Below, piece after piece: positions 3,821 to 28,659 of a stretch of DNA of 64,000 nt; the first letter of the stretch is position 1; every line of letters begins with the position of its first letter. The position numbers and the translations under genes are program-made. The DNA comes from Bacteroidota bacterium. GTDB taxonomy: Bacteria > Bacteroidota > Bacteroidia > Flavobacteriales_E > Vicingaceae. The notes beneath the pieces were generated by a model. It was not told where the DNA came from. It did not search any database and worked only from the letters and a program-made list of their open reading frames with translations. The stretch covers positions 1 to 64,000 of the forward strand of contig JACPDX010000065.1 of NCBI GenBank assembly GCA_016183805.1, written 5' to 3'.

Positions 3821-3846
3821 TTTTATCCGTCAGCTGACGGATAAAA
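3821..3846. repeat. 26-bp perfect palindrome abutting the tRNA 5' end
   Basis: A perfect 26-base palindrome centred on the PvuII-like CAGCTG, with core TCCGTCAGCTGACGGA. It begins exactly at the base before the tRNA. With the promoter proposed at 3856-3886 it would lie in the 5' leader of the pre-tRNA. The same 16-base core occurs at 27221-27236 and 27687-27702, both inside initiator-tRNA fragments. Confidence 0.85.
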
Positions 3847-17422: not shown

Positions 17423-19254
17423 TAAAGTTTATTTTTAGCGTTAAGAATGAATAGAGCACTCATCAGATATTCCCAATTTTTATTCTTATCAGGTTTTTCT
17501 ATAAGATATTCCTTTTGTAAAATATCAATGGATTCAAGAATCATCTTTTTCATAGTTGGTGATTCCAGCCATTTTTCCTGTGGAGTCACATATCCTGTTT
17601 TATCCTTTCTCCAACCAATTTCAGAAGGCAATAAGTTTTTATAGGTGTCTCTCAAAATAAATTTCGTCCATCCTTCATTTATTTTTAAATTAGAAGGTAA
17701 GTCAAGAGCATATTCTACCAATGATGTGTTTAAAAAAGGATGTCTTACTTCAACATGATGTGCCATAGCATTCCTATCTCCTCTTATTAACATTTGTTCT
17801 AGTCCATGATCAAAAGTTAAATATTGTAGAAAATTATTCACGCTATCAAATGACACGAAGGGATTTGCGGTTGTATTTAAAAAGGTTTTTCTGATTTCTT
17901 TTGGAATGTCTGAATGATTACTGTTGGGATAAAGATGGTTTTTGAATTTTGATAATTCTGAAAATAACGAAGGAAAAATGGCTCTCAGAAAATCGAAAAG
18001 TTCATATTGATAGTTCTTTCCATATAGTTTTTGATAAGCCTTTTTTTCTTTACAAAATTTCTTAAAAGATAATTGTTTAAGTAATTCTGAATAGTAAGTT
18101 TTATAGGTTGAATTGTAACCTCCAAAAATTTCATCTGCCCCTTGACCATCCAATATAACCTTATATCCAGATTGTTTAGCCAATTCACATACTTTCCATT
18201 CGGCAAAATAGCTTGAGGAATATACAGGTTCTTCCTGATGTTTAAAAAAATTAATTATGTCTTTTTCAAAATCAGTACTTTCTATCCAAACATGGTTGGA
18301 ATTAAATGAAATTTTGTCTACTACTTTTTCTATAAACCTTCCCTCATCTTGGCTAAAATTTTTATACCTTGCAGAAAAGGTTGATAAGGTAGGTACAGTT
18401 TTAAATTCATTTTGTAATAGCAAAGTCAATATAGATGAATCAATGCCTCCAGAAAGGCATGCTCCAACCGGCACATCAGATCTTAATGTAAATTTTAAAG
18501 CATTTGTTAGTTTTTCACTTAACAACTCACGGTATTCTTCATTAGTTTTTACCTGGTCTTTTTTGGAGGAATAATTCCAGTATTTTTCTTTTTTTAACTC
18601 ATGATTCCGAAAAATTAAAAAATGAGAAGGAGGAAGCAATTTTATTTTTTCATAAAATGTATCTTCTCTTTTTTTTGGATTTGTATGAGAGTATGCTAAA
18701 TAGTAAACTAATTGTTGGTAATTTATTGATGAAGATACTATTTTGTTTGATAAAATTGATTTCATTTCGCTTGCAAACACGAATATGCCTTCGTTGTGAT
18801 AATAGTAAAAAGGTTTTTCACCAAATCGATCTCTAGCACAAAAAAGTTCTTGTTCTTTTTCATCCCATAAAGCAAACGCAAACATACCTTCAAACTGATG
18901 TAAACAATCTTTCCCCCAATAATCATAAGCAGCTAAAATTACTTCTGTATCGGTATTTGATTTAAAGGTATATCCCTTTCCTTGTAATTCCTTTCTAATT
19001 TCTAAATAATTATAGATTTCTCCATTATAGGTTATCGTATATCGGTTTTCAGCATAAAACATGGGTTGTTTGCCTGCATCTGACAAATCAATAATTGACA
19101 ACCTTCTATGTCCTAACCCAACATTCTTAGTAGCATTTATCCAATGACCTTCTCCGTCCGGACCTCGATGTACTAAAACATCTGTCATCTGTTTCAATTC
19201 CAAGAATTGAACAGGTCTTTGATTAAAATGTATTATTCCGGCAATTCCACACAT
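17422..19254 (-). CDS. asnB: Asparagine synthase (glutamine-hydrolysing), copy 1
   Basis: A 610-residue AsnB-type protein. Cys2 after the initiator Met is the glutaminase nucleophile (MCGIAG); RHxGPDG-like HRGPDGEG and NGEIYN complete the class II glutaminase domain up to about residue 190. The synthetase domain has the PP-loop SGGIDSS near residue 264 and LDGQGADEIFGGY near residue 365. In polysaccharide loci such proteins often amidate sugar acids rather than make free asparagine. The first ~150 residues are nearly identical to the adjacent paralogue, while the rest is strongly diverged. It lies 13 bases after copy 2 and overlaps the flippase by one base. Confidence 0.92.
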   Translation of the reverse strand: MCGIAGIIHFNQRPVQFLELKQMTDVLVHRGPDGEGHWINATKNVGLGHRRLSIIDLSDAGKQPMFYAENRYTITYNGEIYNYLEIRKELQGKGYTFKSNTDTEVILAAYDYWGKDCLHQFEGMFAFALWDEKEQELFCARDRFGEKPFYYYHNEGIFVFASEMKSILSNKIVSSSINYQQLVYYLAYSHTNPKKREDTFYEKIKLLPPSHFLIFRNHELKKEKYWNYSSKKDQVKTNEEYRELLSEKLTNALKFTLRSDVPVGACLSGGIDSSILTLLLQNEFKTVPTLSTFSARYKNFSQDEGRFIEKVVDKISFNSNHVWIESTDFEKDIINFFKHQEEPVYSSSYFAEWKVCELAKQSGYKVILDGQGADEIFGGYNSTYKTYYSELLKQLSFKKFCKEKKAYQKLYGKNYQYELFDFLRAIFPSLFSELSKFKNHLYPNSNHSDIPKEIRKTFLNTTANPFVSFDSVNNFLQYLTFDHGLEQMLIRGDRNAMAHHVEVRHPFLNTSLVEYALDLPSNLKINEGWTKFILRDTYKNLLPSEIGWRKDKTGYVTPQEKWLESPTMKKMILESIDILQKEYLIEKPDKNKNWEYLMSALFILNAKNKL

Positions 19255-19267
19255 TGGTTAATCATTT

Positions 19268-21100
19268 TTACTCATAAAGCATTCCTAACATTAAATGTTG
19301 CCAGGTTACATCTATATTTTTTTTGTTGGATAATATTTTATCGTTGATTAATTGTTGTTGAGCATTTCTCGACATTTCAACAAGTTGCTTATTTTTCATC
19401 CATTTTGCTTGGGGCGGCTCATAACCAATTTTATCTTTTCTCCATTGAATACTGGTAGGTAAAACACCTTCCATTCCAATTCTTAACAAATATTTTGTCC
19501 AACCGTTCCGAATAAAATAATGTTCTGGTAAAGAAAAAACAAATTCCACCAATTTATGATTTAAAAAGGGCAATCTTACTTCAACTGAATGAGCCATTGA
19601 ATTCCTATCGGCATACCTTAGCAATTCATTTAACCCTCGATCTACTAACATAAACTTTAAATGACTTTTTAAGTCAGGCGGGGCATAAACGGGATTAGGA
19701 GATGATCTATACTCTTCAACTAATTCAGTATTCATTCCAAGAAAAAATTCATCACTACTATTAATTTTTTGTCTTCTTTTATTTCCAAACTTTTTGTATT
19801 GAGTATAAAAAAAAGTCAATAACAATCCTTCTACACCTTTGACAGAAAAATGATTTTGCGTTATTTGGTTTATTTGTTTTTTTTCGCTAAAGTACTTAAT
19901 GGGATTACTTTTATATAACTGTCTTAAATACGCATCAAAAGATGAAGAATACCCTGCTAATAATTCATCTGCTCCTTGCCCATCTAACAGTACTTTTACA
20001 TTGGTATCAGAAGCCAATTTCATAACCTCAAATTGAGCTGCAATACTTGCGCTAACAAATGGCTGCCCTTGATGATACATGATTTTTCTGAGATTCTTCA
20101 ACATGGAGTCTTCTGTTGGAAAAACTTCGTGTTGTATAATTCTAGCATGGTTACAAAAATTGACAACCTCAGCAATATGTTTTCCTTCATCTTTTTTAAA
20201 TCCGGGAAAGCGTGCTGAAAAAATATGCTGTTCATTATTCTTATCAATTAATTCATTCATAACACAAACAATGGAGGAGGAGTCTAATCCACCCGACAAA
20301 CTACTCCCAACAGAAACATCGCTTCTCAAACGTGTTTGAACGGACTCTCGAAATAAATTTTTAAATGTTTCCACGGCTTGTTGTTCGGAGCCAGTAAATG
20401 TTGTAGTTGTTGCTAAATCCCAATATTTTTGTTTTTTGATTTCACCATTTTTATTTAACACCATACTGGTAGAAGGTTCGAGTTGGAGTATGTTATTAAA
20501 AAAAGTTTCTGAGTGTGAATAAGGGTTTTCGACGGTAAGAAACAATAGGTATTCGTAAGTTTTTTTTCTGTTAATTTCTTTTTTAATTTTCAAAGAAAAA
20601 ATGGCTTTCATCTCTGATGCAAAAACAAATTTTTCATTGTCTTTGAAGTAATAAAAAGGTTTTTCGCCAAATCGGTCTCGGGCACAAAAAAGTTCTTGTT
20701 CTTTTTCATCCCATAAAGCAAATGCAAACATACCTTCAAACTGATGTAAACAGTCTTTTCCCCAATAATGGTAAGCAGCTAAAATTACTTCGGTATCGGT
20801 GTTTGATTTAAAAGTATATCCTTTGCCTTGTAATTCTTTTCTAATTTCTAAGTAATTGTAAATTTCTCCGTTGTAGGTTATTGTATAGCGATTTTCAGCA
20901 TAAAACATGGGTTGTTTACCGGCATCCGACAAATCAATAATGGCTAATCTCCTATGCCCTAACCCTACATTTTTTGCAGGGTTTATCCAATGTCCTTCAC
21001 CATCTGGACCTCGATGTGCTAAAACATCTGTCATCTGTTTTAGTTCGGATAATTGAACAGGTGTTTGATTAAAATGTATTATTCCGGCAATTCCACACAT
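19268..21100 (-). CDS. asnB: Asparagine synthase (glutamine-hydrolysing), copy 2
   Basis: The first gene of the 12-gene polysaccharide operon, also 610 residues. It has the Cys2 glutaminase nucleophile, GLGHRRLAIIDLS, NGEIYN, the PP-loop SGGLDSSS near residue 267 and LDGQGADELLAGYSSS near residue 369. Of the first 151 residues only eight differ from copy 1, and only one of those lies after residue 53. From residue 152 on, similarity falls to that of distant paralogues. The abrupt change suggests gene conversion or mosaic duplication of the glutaminase half. Different synthetase halves suggest two different acceptor substrates. Confidence 0.92.
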   Translation of the reverse strand: MCGIAGIIHFNQTPVQLSELKQMTDVLAHRGPDGEGHWINPAKNVGLGHRRLAIIDLSDAGKQPMFYAENRYTITYNGEIYNYLEIRKELQGKGYTFKSNTDTEVILAAYHYWGKDCLHQFEGMFAFALWDEKEQELFCARDRFGEKPFYYFKDNEKFVFASEMKAIFSLKIKKEINRKKTYEYLLFLTVENPYSHSETFFNNILQLEPSTSMVLNKNGEIKKQKYWDLATTTTFTGSEQQAVETFKNLFRESVQTRLRSDVSVGSSLSGGLDSSSIVCVMNELIDKNNEQHIFSARFPGFKKDEGKHIAEVVNFCNHARIIQHEVFPTEDSMLKNLRKIMYHQGQPFVSASIAAQFEVMKLASDTNVKVLLDGQGADELLAGYSSSFDAYLRQLYKSNPIKYFSEKKQINQITQNHFSVKGVEGLLLTFFYTQYKKFGNKRRQKINSSDEFFLGMNTELVEEYRSSPNPVYAPPDLKSHLKFMLVDRGLNELLRYADRNSMAHSVEVRLPFLNHKLVEFVFSLPEHYFIRNGWTKYLLRIGMEGVLPTSIQWRKDKIGYEPPQAKWMKNKQLVEMSRNAQQQLINDKILSNKKNIDVTWQHLMLGMLYE

Positions 21101-26134: not shown

Positions 26135-27160
26135 ATGAAAATACTCATTACAGGCGGAGCAGGTTACATAGGCTCACACACCATTATAGAAATTTTAGAA
26201 AACACCAATTGGGAAGTTATTGCTGTTGATAATTATTCTAATTCATCTGAAAAAACCTATCGACGAATCGAAAAAATTACTGGAAAAAAAATCAACTATT
26301 ATAACATCGATTTAACCAATTTATCACTTACAGAAAAGGTTTTTTATGAAAATAAAGACATCATCGGAATCATTCACTTTGCGGCTTTTAAATCAGTTCC
26401 AGAATCGGTTGAAAAACCCTTATTGTATTACCACAACAACCTCAACTCATTGATTAACATCTTAAAATGCCAAGCAAAATATAACATTCCAAACCTTATT
26501 TTCTCCTCTTCTTGTTCGGTTTATGGTAATCTCGACGAATTACCTGTTACTGAAAATACTCCATTAAATACGCCCGAATCGCCGTATGCTTACACCAAAC
26601 AAATTGGCGAAAAAATAGTGGACGATTTCATTAAGATAAATCCTACGTTAAAAGCTATTTCATTACGCTATTTTAATCCCGTTGGTGCTCACAAAAGTGG
26701 ATTAAATGGCGAAGTTCCTATTGCCCGACCAAACAACTTAGTGCCTTACATCACCCAAACTGCTATAGGAAAATTAGAACAATTAACCGTTTTTGGTGGA
26801 GATTACGCTACCAACGATGGTACTTGTATTCGAGATTATGTGCATGTATGCGATATTGCAGCTGCTCATGTACAAGCTTTACAAAAATTAATTTCTGATA
26901 AAAATTTCCCGAAACATAGCATTATTAATTTAGGTACCGGTGTTGGGGTTAGCGTATTAGAAGCTATCCATGCATTCGAAAAAGTAAGCAATCAAAAACT
27001 CAATTATTTTATAGGGAATAGAAGAGACGGTGATGTTGCTGCCATCTATGCCAATAACGATTTAGCTAAAAAAATGTTAGGTTGGACTCCAAAATATGAC
27101 ATTGATGAAATGATGAATTCCGCTTGGCTTTGGGAGCAGAACTTAAATAAAAAGCAATAA
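26135..27160 (+). CDS. galE: UDP-glucose 4-epimerase
   Basis: A 341-residue extended short-chain dehydrogenase converting UDP-glucose to UDP-galactose (or the N-acetyl forms). It has the NAD-binding GGAGYIGSH at residues 7-15, VAVDNYSNSS-like IAVDNYSNSS, the catalytic SSSCSVYG near residue 125 and YAYTKQIGE (Tyr-x3-Lys) near residue 151, and the GalE signatures RYFNPVGAH and NDGTCIRDYVHVCD. Length is normal. A terminator-like hairpin follows immediately at 27161. Confidence 0.95.
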   Translation: MKILITGGAGYIGSHTIIEILENTNWEVIAVDNYSNSSEKTYRRIEKITGKKINYYNIDLTNLSLTEKVFYENKDIIGIIHFAAFKSVPESVEKPLLYYHNNLNSLINILKCQAKYNIPNLIFSSSCSVYGNLDELPVTENTPLNTPESPYAYTKQIGEKIVDDFIKINPTLKAISLRYFNPVGAHKSGLNGEVPIARPNNLVPYITQTAIGKLEQLTVFGGDYATNDGTCIRDYVHVCDIAAAHVQALQKLISDKNFPKHSIINLGTGVGVSVLEAIHAFEKVSNQKLNYFIGNRRDGDVAAIYANNDLAKKMLGWTPKYDIDEMMNSAWLWEQNLNKKQ

Positions 27161-27188
27161 AAAAGCTCCAGATTTCTCTGAAGCTTTT
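27161..27188. terminator. Terminator hairpin after galE, homologous to the tRNA-fMet terminator
   Basis: A 7-bp stem AAAAGCT/AGCTTTT continues through one mismatch into CAGA/TCTG, with a 4-base loop. It resembles the hairpin at 27527-27550 in sequence and in position relative to tRNA-fMet sequence, so it is likely the original terminator of the broken tRNA copy. It can also end galE transcription. Confidence 0.7.
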
Positions 27189-27194
27189 CTCTAG

Positions 27195-27220
27195 TAGCGG
27201 GGGTCCGACACAAATGGACG
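27195..27220 (-). pseudogene. 3' fragment of a tRNA-fMet gene
   Basis: These 26 bases match the 3' end of the intact initiator tRNA (27555-27580) at 22 positions, covering the acceptor strand and T-arm. The four mismatches lie in and next to the T-arm and would weaken it. The homology stops at the 23-base repeat. Confidence 0.75.
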
Positions 27221-27238
27221 TCCGTCAGCTGACGGATA
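27216..27238. repeat. 23-bp direct repeat, left copy (contains 16-bp palindrome)
   Basis: The 23 bases are identical to 27682-27704 and in the same orientation; both contain the palindrome TCCGTCAGCTGACGGA. The copies bound a unit of about 0.47 kb that holds the GIY-YIG gene and the intact tRNA-fMet. Confidence 0.85.
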
Positions 27239-27247
27239 CTTGTCCGA

Positions 27248-27511
27248 CTACTGGCGGATGAGCCCTTTTGATTTTAAATAATCCCAAACAAATGTTCGAC
27301 CTCTGCTTGTTTTTAATTCCTTTTCTCGTTTCATAGCATTTGGTTTAGTCTCAAATTCTTCAAAAAAAGCAATCTCCCATGGTCTATATTTTACAGTAAA
27401 ACCTTTGGTTGCTTTTTCATTGTGAGAAAGGAATCTATCTTCTAAATCGGAGGTATAGCCAATATAGATTTTATTGAATTCTTTTGAATATAAAACGTAA
27501 ACTTTATACAT
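27248..27511 (-). CDS. GIY-YIG domain protein (small, UPF0213/COG2827-like)
   Basis: An 87-residue single-domain protein with YVLYSKEFNKIYIGYTSDL (the GIY-YIG pair appears as YVL and YIG), RFLSHNEK with the usual Arg and His, and RPWEIAFFEEFETKPNAMKREKELK, containing the EFxxxxxAMKREKELK-type helix with the conserved glutamate. Such proteins share the nuclease fold of UvrC and homing endonucleases; activity of the small family is mostly unproven. It lies on the same strand as the intact tRNA-fMet, just after the tRNA's terminator and inside the two direct repeats. The last codons (GLIRQ) run close to the left repeat. Confidence 0.85.
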   Translation of the reverse strand: MYKVYVLYSKEFNKIYIGYTSDLEDRFLSHNEKATKGFTVKYRPWEIAFFEEFETKPNAMKREKELKTSRGRTFVWDYLKSKGLIRQ

Positions 27512-27526
27512 TTTTTAAAAACAAAA

Positions 27527-27550
27527 AAGCCTCAGATTTCTCTAAGGCTT
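27527..27550 (-). terminator. Terminator of the intact tRNA-fMet
   Basis: The stem AAGCCT/AGGCTT plus three further pairs after one mismatch is followed on the minus strand by a T-run. It lies four bases after the tRNA's last base. Confidence 0.75.
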
Positions 27551-27554
27551 CTAG

Positions 27555-27627
27555 TAGCGGGGGCCCGACTCGAACGGACGACCTTCGGGTTATGAGCCCG
27601 ATGAGCTACCAACTGCTCTACCCCGCG
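27555..27627 (-). tRNA. tRNA-fMet (initiator, CAT), intact copy
   Basis: The 73-base cloverleaf starts CGCGGGG and ends CCCCGCTA. Base 1 (C) cannot pair with base 72 (T), a hallmark of bacterial initiators, and the anticodon stem contains the GGG/CCC pairs around loop CTCATAA. The T-arm is intact. CCA is not encoded. No convincing promoter lies directly upstream; the nearest one, at 27777-27807, would first transcribe the broken 5' half at 27703-27739. Confidence 0.93.
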
Positions 27628-27681
27628 ATATATTTTGAGGATTACCGCTAATCCCTTTTCTTTCATTCTTCATTCTCCAAC

Positions 27682-27704
27682 GGACGTCCGTCAGCTGACG
27701 GATA
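27682..27704. repeat. 23-bp direct repeat, right copy (contains 16-bp palindrome)
   Basis: Identical to 27216-27238. It directly joins the 5' half of the broken tRNA-fMet. Together the two repeats stand in for the anticodon 3' stem and variable loop of the broken tRNA. Confidence 0.85.
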
Positions 27705-27739
27705 TGAGCCCGATGAGCTACCAACTGCTCTACCCCGCG
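27703..27739 (-). pseudogene. 5' half of a tRNA-fMet gene
   Basis: Thirty-seven bases are identical to positions 1-37 of the intact tRNA-fMet, from the acceptor 5' strand to the anticodon loop. About 12 bases of 5' flank (ATATATTTT-type) are also shared with the intact copy. The sequence then breaks into the palindromic repeat, so no mature tRNA can form. Confidence 0.85.
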
Positions 27740-27776
27740 ATATATTTTAAGAAGTATACTTTCTTTTATTGGGCTG

Positions 27777-27807
27777 CAAATATAATATTTAGTTTCTTTG
27801 TAATCAA
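27777..27807 (-). promoter_or_regulatory. Consensus promoter upstream of the split tRNA-fMet
   Basis: On the minus strand TTG (27805-27807), 20 bases, then TATATTTG (27777-27784) is an exact match to TTG-N20-TAnnTTTG. Transcription would start near 27770, pass through the 5' tRNA fragment and the repeat, and reach the intact tRNA-fMet. Confidence 0.7.
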
Positions 27808-27824
27808 ATTTATTCCCATAAATA

Positions 27825-28659
27825 ATGCATAAATCAGGCTTTGTAAACATTATTGGCAATCCAAACGTAGGTAAATCAACCCTTATGAACGTTTTAGTGG
27901 GCGAACGGTTGTCTATTATTACTTCTAAAGCACAAACTACTCGTCATCGAATTTTAGGTATTGTGAACGACGAAAACCACCAAATTGTATTTTCTGACAC
28001 TCCCGGAGTTTTAGAACCTGCCTATAAAATGCACGAAAGCATGATGACTTTTGTAAAATCTGCACTTTCGGATGCCGATGTGATTTTATTTATGGTGGAG
28101 GTAAAAGAAAATCGTTTTAGAGATGCCGATATTTTAAACAGTCTTAAAAAAACTGATACACCTATACTATTGTTAATCAATAAGATTGATGAAGTTGACC
28201 AACTATTTTTAGAAGAAAAAGTTGCCTTTTGGAAAAAGGAAATACCTAAAGCTGAAATCTATCCTCTTTCTGCTCTACATAATTTTAATATCGATAATAT
28301 ATTTGAACGTGTCAAAGAGTTATTGCCTGAAGGTGAACCTTATTACGATAAAGATGCTTTAACGGACAAACCAGAAAAGTTTTTTGTTGCTGAAATTATT
28401 CGTGAAAAAATCTTGATGAATTACCAAAAGGAAATTCCCTACTCTTGCGAAGTGGAAGTTGAAGAGTACAAAAAAAAAGAAAAAATTGTAAATCATCATT
28501 GGGCATCAAGGAAAAGAATTGAAAAAAATTGGAACCGAAGCCCGAAAAGACATCGAAACATTTGTCCAAAACAAAGTATTTCTTGACTTGTATGTAAAAG
28601 TGAGCAAAGACTGGAGAGACAACGACAATCAATTGAAACGATTTGGATATAACCAGTAG
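27825..28659 (+). pseudogene. era: GTPase Era, broken by a deletion/frameshift in the KH domain
   Basis: The GTPase domain is normal: GNPNVGKST, DTPGVLEP, NKID and SALHNFN. Era binds 16S rRNA and acts in 30S assembly. The reading frame from 27825 runs to a stop at 28586 (253 residues) and its last ~25 residues are unlike Era. The true KH core ([20 protein letters not shown], later [16 protein letters not shown] and FGYNQ) is present but in another frame from about 28491 to the stop at 28657-28659. About 14 codons expected between EKIVN and IIIGHQG are missing, with a remainder that changes frame. In that second frame a TAA directly precedes IIIGHQG, so a slip at the nearby A9 run cannot repair it. 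It is either a real deletion in a normally important gene or an assembly error. Confidence 0.85.

Follow-up and report, generated by a model that had tools for sequence, protein, structure and literature searches.

What has split the initiator tRNA gene of a bacterium, and how has the host come to retain an intact copy? The question is raised by a tRNA-fMet locus between era and galE in the 64,000-nucleotide stretch of Bacteroidota DNA analysed here (the window). Read along the minus strand, the native promoter is followed by the first 37 nucleotides of tRNA-fMet, a 16-bp palindrome, a spacer of about 60 bp and an intact tRNA-fMet; beyond this come a terminator, a GIY-YIG open reading frame (ORF), a decayed palindrome, a second and perfect palindrome, a decayed tRNA 3′ half and a further terminator. 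A preliminary description had read these parts as an inserted element, and each was recovered where it had been placed, from the 37-nucleotide 5′ half and the exact 23-bp repeats to the tRNA and the GIY-YIG domain.

Anatomy of the split tRNA-fMet locus

All of the features are encoded on the minus strand. The native promoter region of tRNA-fMet (27770-27808, with a promoter-like match at 27807-27779) now precedes the broken 5′ half of the gene (27703-27739). This half ends with the bases CATA of the anticodon loop, and its sequence (27739-27703) agrees at 37 of 37 nucleotides with the first part of the intact tRNA-fMet (27627-27591). In place of the 3′ side of the anticodon arm stands the perfect palindrome TCCGTCAGCTGACGGA (27687-27702), which lies within the first copy of the exact 23-bp repeat TATCCGTCAGCTGACGGACGTCC (27704-27682).

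ARAGORN and Rfam agree on one intact tRNA-Met(CAU), located at 27554-27627 and scoring 60 bits. When the whole genome, which is 96% complete, was searched with tRNA-fMet, only three matches were obtained, all of them at the split locus, and this copy is the sole intact initiator tRNA among them. Its terminator (27525-27552) differs in sequence from those of the congeners. The GIY-YIG nuclease gene (27248-27511) encodes 87 amino acids and retains the conserved catalytic Tyr, Gly, Arg, His and Glu residues. The end of the ORF is overlapped by an older, decayed piece of anticodon arm and palindrome (GGGCTCATCCGCCAGTAGTCGGAC, 27242-27265), at the same place as the palindrome of other elements. A second perfect copy of TCCGTCAGCTGACGGA follows (27221-27236), within the other copy of the 23-bp repeat (27238-27216). 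The displaced and decayed 3′ half of tRNA-fMet (27191-27220) matches the intact 3′ half at 22 of 26 nucleotides by eye, as had been described, and gave a BLAST match over 27156-27226; it is followed by its native terminator (27159-27190). The two terminator hairpins, behind the intact tRNA and behind the 3′ remnant, are homologous, again as described.

Two further observations concern the window at large. The neighbouring era gene (27825-28659) is apparently frameshifted in an A-rich run near 28480, with its C-terminal part in another frame (28519-28659), which appears to be either a sequencing error or a real lesion. Exact repeated 23-mers at 18836-21086, in two blocks 1846 bp apart, form a direct repeat unrelated to the tRNA-fMet locus.

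The site is empty in congeners

Relatives had been proposed as the place to look for an uninterrupted tRNA-fMet, and three species of the same genus (G001-G003) indeed carry one, with a single terminator, at the matching era-linked site. The native promoter and leader that precede the broken 5′ half in the window are near-identical to the sequence before the intact tRNA-fMet of G001. The terminator of the displaced remnant is identical at 36 of 40 positions to the tRNA-fMet terminators of G001 and G002. The terminator behind the intact tRNA matches the displaced terminator at 29 of 40 positions and that of G001 at 32 of 40; it differs from the congeners’ terminators, yet is homologous to them.

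Because the congeners are uninterrupted, the remnant keeps the native terminator and the native promoter fronts the broken half, it is the native gene that has been split, and the material between its halves is extra. The insertion site is fixed, being empty in G001-G003 and at an equal position across many loci. In the window the host tRNA is completed by a duplicated 3′ part, and the native 3′ part is displaced past the nuclease gene. No match to the window nuclease was found anywhere in G002; in G001 and G003 the matches are distant only and are located elsewhere in the genome.

The 23-bp repeat carries a dispersed palindrome

The 23-bp repeat could be taken for the footprint of an insertion. 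Its core is the perfect 16-bp palindrome, which, with close variants, is found at 32 sites in the source genome, as against 2 for a reversed control pattern, and the repeat was therefore ruled out as an insertion footprint. It is instead a copy of the anticodon arm in which tRNA sequence has been replaced by the palindrome. About 29 of the copies in the source genome lie away from tRNA genes, and in four cases, against 0.6 expected, such a copy forms the very tip of a longer inverted repeat. Across relatives the counts of dispersed palindromes do not track the presence of the nuclease, leaving a strict tie between the two unsupported; among genomes that carry the nuclease they are very uneven, and zero or near zero in several. 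The sites include 3826-3841 in the window, and one copy lies directly upstream of the other tRNA-Met of the window.

In displaced tRNA copies the palindrome occupies a constant context. The motif TCATA-[TCCG..CGGA]-C occurs more than 110 times (tandem copies counted); 93 of 101 palindrome sites have at least six perfect base pairs, and the arms fall into five covarying types. The palindrome usually stands for the 3′ side of the anticodon arm, and at L015, L147, L205, L217 and L223 it lies in the T arm.

In the viral collection only distant relatives were found, two of them with similar anatomy. On two IMG/VR contigs (L233 and L234) a distant GIY-YIG gene is followed by a tRNA remnant in which the anticodon arm is replaced by TCCGCC..GGCGGA, which is the palindrome type of the window in other tRNAs; in L233 the GIY-YIG gene is also preceded by another 3′ half. 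At L033 (G012:C9:623500-627500) two tandem broken copies of tRNA-Asn, whose anticodon arm contains the palindrome-like CCCGTTCAAACGGG, lie upstream of an intact tRNA-Asn and then a GIY-YIG tandem array.

The arrangement recurs at tRNA genes

A search of other genomes for the repeat beside tRNA genes and small GIY-YIG genes had also been suggested. The arrangement recurs across Bacteroidota and related phyla. Related genes were present in 27 of 31 genomes in a search of relatives; when the search was widened to the class, 69 of 296 genomes contained a close relative (E <= 1e-12). A profile built from genes at CAU tRNAs retrieved 80 loci of named genomes from Bacteroidota, Balneolota, Rhodothermota, Ignavibacteriota and other groups, and these are accordingly a biased sample of GIY-YIG genes. 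An intact tRNA, nearly always with a CAU anticodon, lies upstream of the ORF in 60 of the 80 loci, typically 30-70 bp away. A strong second tRNA 3′ half, usually preceded by a palindrome, lies downstream of the ORF in at least 42 of the 80, and several of the loci without one end at contig edges. In a less biased set taken from relatives, a tRNA or tmRNA is directly upstream in about half of 28 loci. Fourteen control tRNAs at gene-free sites were present as one copy each.

Two or more 5′ copies were found in 18 of 91 loci, which makes the broken 5′ half upstream in the window an addition that only a minority of loci possess. The recurrent unit usually consists of a replacement tRNA half, a terminator and the nuclease gene, without a whole tRNA. 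The proposal that the element brings its own intact tRNA therefore stands in part: the host tRNA is kept intact by element-associated sequence, but what recurs usually carries only the half and the terminator. An assembly artefact is ruled out, since numerous assemblies made independently show like anatomy, among them two that consist of a single contig (G071 as L135 and G241 as L124).

Multiplied and mirror forms were also observed. Tandem arrays are present in G012 (10 units with a 457-bp period) and G016 (8 units with a period of about 377 bp), each with a single intact tRNA at one end, followed by 3′ halves only. Three loci (L222, L228 and L139) show a mirror form, in which a displaced 5′ half with its palindrome comes first, then the ORF and only then the intact tRNA, and the leader before the tRNA is duplicated too; G015 has a similar arrangement. 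In the window a broken tRNA copy stands on both sides of the intact one, and a Chryseolinea locus (L199) combines an upstream broken copy and an intact tRNA with several ORF-less tandem 3′ halves. Tandem duplication, which had been named as the main alternative to an element, is on this evidence not simply an alternative, since arrays of up to 10 units show that duplication is part of the element’s behaviour.

More distant GIY-YIG genes lie behind tRNA-Ala, Arg, Asn, Asp, His and Val and behind a tmRNA. At the tmRNA locus (L018, match 1501-1719) the related gene is downstream of the tmRNA, and a direct repeat of about 105 bp borders it on either side, which suggests the same strategy as at tRNA genes. 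The GIY-YIG genes of L022 and L026 have no tRNA close by, but they too lie between direct repeats, here of about 110-120 bp. Phage and plasmid records contained distant GIY-YIG genes only, and no vector was identified among them.

The GIY-YIG protein and its probable target

The 87-residue protein matches the Pfam GIY-YIG family (PF01541) at 2.6e-17 and 63.3 bits, against a cut-off of 22.6. Y5, Y16, G18, R26, H30 and E63 are invariant in the alignment, and no DNA-binding domain is evident beyond the GIY-YIG fold. The nearest relatives of solved structure are UPF0213 proteins and the structure-specific SLX1. Pairwise comparison of related ORFs (34 pairs, not independent of one another) gave a median dN/dS of 0.08, which indicates that the nuclease gene is under purifying selection. 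This agrees with the earlier view that the GIY-YIG gene belongs to the element, in that it is conserved, selectively maintained and seated with the tRNA. Some copies are broken by stop codons; together with the low dN/dS this would fit an active gene that is gained and lost, a pattern in which selection alone does not distinguish selfish from useful.

In the clade of the window protein nearly all identified host tRNAs have a CAU anticodon, with few exceptions (two tRNA-Val). The initiator and elongator/Ile2 types of CAU tRNA are interleaved on the protein tree, and members from Balneolota, Rhodothermota and Ignavibacteriota fall among those of Bacteroidota; few forks of the tree are well supported. 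Horizontal transfer may be suggested by this weakly resolved tree. One of the longest blocks that both CAU tRNA types have in common is TCATAACCC..AGGTCG, and the position of the palindrome coincides with it. This is the main argument, and an indirect one, that the nuclease may recognise the anticodon arm.

Two well-known kinds of genetic element at tRNA genes bear comparison with the locus. Group I introns with homing endonucleases occur in bacterial tRNA genes, tRNA-fMet included, and share with the window element a position in the anticodon region; in the window, by contrast, it is an intact copy in the DNA, and not splicing, that preserves the tRNA. A scan of the window at Rfam gathering thresholds returned two tRNAs only, with no group I intron core between the halves, and a group I intron was ruled out on this basis. 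Integrative elements at tRNA attachment sites rebuild the tRNA 3′ end on entry, and the fragment that they displace stays behind, as is seen here, whereas the window element has no integrase gene, is about 0.4 kb long and breaks the tRNA in the anticodon arm beside a palindrome. The GIY-YIG ORF stands alone between the halves, the other short ORFs overlapping tRNA sequence, and an integrase-type element was ruled out by the absence of a recombinase gene.

Discussion

The observed anatomy, recurrence, empty sites, clustering by target type, arrays and selection on the nuclease point to what is probably a minimal homing-like selfish element, one that resides in the tRNA gene and replaces the part that it displaces; its cleavage activity, cut position and mobility between cells are putative.

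In the mechanism that we infer, the small GIY-YIG nuclease would probably cut element-free tRNA genes in the anticodon arm (or in the T arm in some lineages), and an occupied copy would then act as the repair template, its tRNA halves serving as homology arms. The nuclease gene would be copied in along with a tRNA 3′ half and terminator that replace the native ones, so that the tRNA would stay whole and the native 3′ half would be shifted downstream. The palindrome that replaces the target arm in displaced copies may confer immunity to cutting, and the element may move between cells. Tandem arrays and mirror forms could result when a cut resident copy is repaired with its halves misaligned, as could killed tRNA copies, of which the upstream 5′ half in the window may be one. 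A weak point is that the presumed target persists in the intact tRNA of an occupied locus; unless the target is somewhere else, the cell must put up with self-cutting. It might do so if the nuclease is poorly expressed behind a terminator and breaks are repaired from sister copies, and the same cutting might drive the arrays. Further points against this reading are the lack of an evident DNA-binding domain beyond the GIY-YIG fold, with UPF0213 proteins and SLX1 as nearest solved relatives, the few well-supported forks of the protein tree, and the palindromes at about 29 places away from tRNA genes.

The locus might instead have arisen by repeated unequal duplication of the tRNA and a resident GIY-YIG gene of unrelated, domesticated role, without any homing. 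Near-identical units are indeed present in the arrays, and single-domain GIY-YIG proteins of the window type occur widely. Moreover, because the internal 3′ half and terminator of the window are homologous to the native ones in the source genome, local duplication could have supplied them. Duplication alone is nevertheless a rather unlikely explanation: the position of the break and the palindrome recur across many lineages and in initiator and elongator CAU tRNAs alike, the gene is absent from congeners at the tRNA-fMet site, related genes are found at other tRNAs in like arrangement, and mirror forms would not be expected from simple duplication.

An altogether different emphasis would make the palindrome the active part, a dispersed repeat that invades hairpin-forming DNA, with an SLX1-like GIY-YIG protein moving or amplifying palindromes at extruded hairpins and the tRNA being one favoured site. 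The excess of palindromes in the source genome (32 against 2), their placement at inverted-repeat tips (4 of 29, with 0.6 expected), the occurrence of TCCGCC..GGCGGA in other tRNAs on two viral-collection contigs, and the kinship with SLX1 would all be accommodated. This explanation is improbable, however, given that palindrome counts vary greatly among nuclease-carrying genomes, several of which have few or none, that most dispersed copies lie away from hairpin tips, and that the fixed TCATA-palindrome-C position speaks for a target defined by tRNA sequence. A device that benefits the host would also suit the strong purifying selection on the protein and the association with essential tRNAs, for example through tRNA-fragment decoys or by regulating the supply of initiator tRNA. 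Against such a role stand the patchy distribution among congeners, the single intact tRNA per array, the decayed ORFs and displaced halves, and the related genes at many tRNA types, and we regard it as highly improbable.

A homing-like element, the reading preferred here, has precedents. Fungal mitochondrial mobile ORFs carry the 3′ end of a host gene, as in atp6 of Allomyces macrogynus and atp6, atp9, cox2 and nad3 of Glomus (PMC3630166). As in the window, an endonuclease gene lies behind a duplicated replacement 3′ end, the host gene is a functional hybrid and the native 3′ end is displaced downstream, outside the gene (PMC3630166). The window element differs in its bacterial tRNA host, its single 87-residue GIY-YIG domain and the palindrome in the displaced part; its type also forms tandem arrays and mirror forms, and its replacement half is homologous to the native one.

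SegB of T-even phages is a free-standing GIY-YIG homing endonuclease that cuts in tRNA genes, and a segment containing a tRNA is amplified in tandem only if its nuclease is active (PMC13096335). The segB gene, like that of the window, lies beside tRNA genes, but it is a phage gene and its product has many cut sites with a loose motif (PMC13096335). A unit with a duplicated tRNA half and a palindrome is a feature of the window element that the sections consulted do not describe for SegB, and cutting is demonstrated for SegB (PMC13096335) but predicted for the window nuclease. The arrangement was not found described in bacterial chromosomes in a literature search that included few subscription journals. 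The best reading is that the window element would home in a manner resembling fungal mobile ORFs and SegB, and yet be a distinct bacterial variant.

Whether the window element stands for a widespread class is a more finely balanced matter. Such a class would comprise selfish elements of 0.35-0.5 kb inside essential bacterial tRNA genes, with anticodon-arm recognition, half replacement, palindrome-marked cut-proof copies and self-driven arrays; the present evidence leaves us evenly divided on it. If the proposal is true, these would be among the smallest selfish elements known, persisting in an indispensable gene and repairing that gene on the way. The homing strategy of replacing a gene end, described for fungal mitochondria (PMC3630166), would be extended to bacterial tRNA genes, and a natural system of nuclease-driven tandem amplification would exist outside phages. 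It would also account for the many tRNA fragments and small GIY-YIG genes that lie beside tRNA genes in Bacteroidota.
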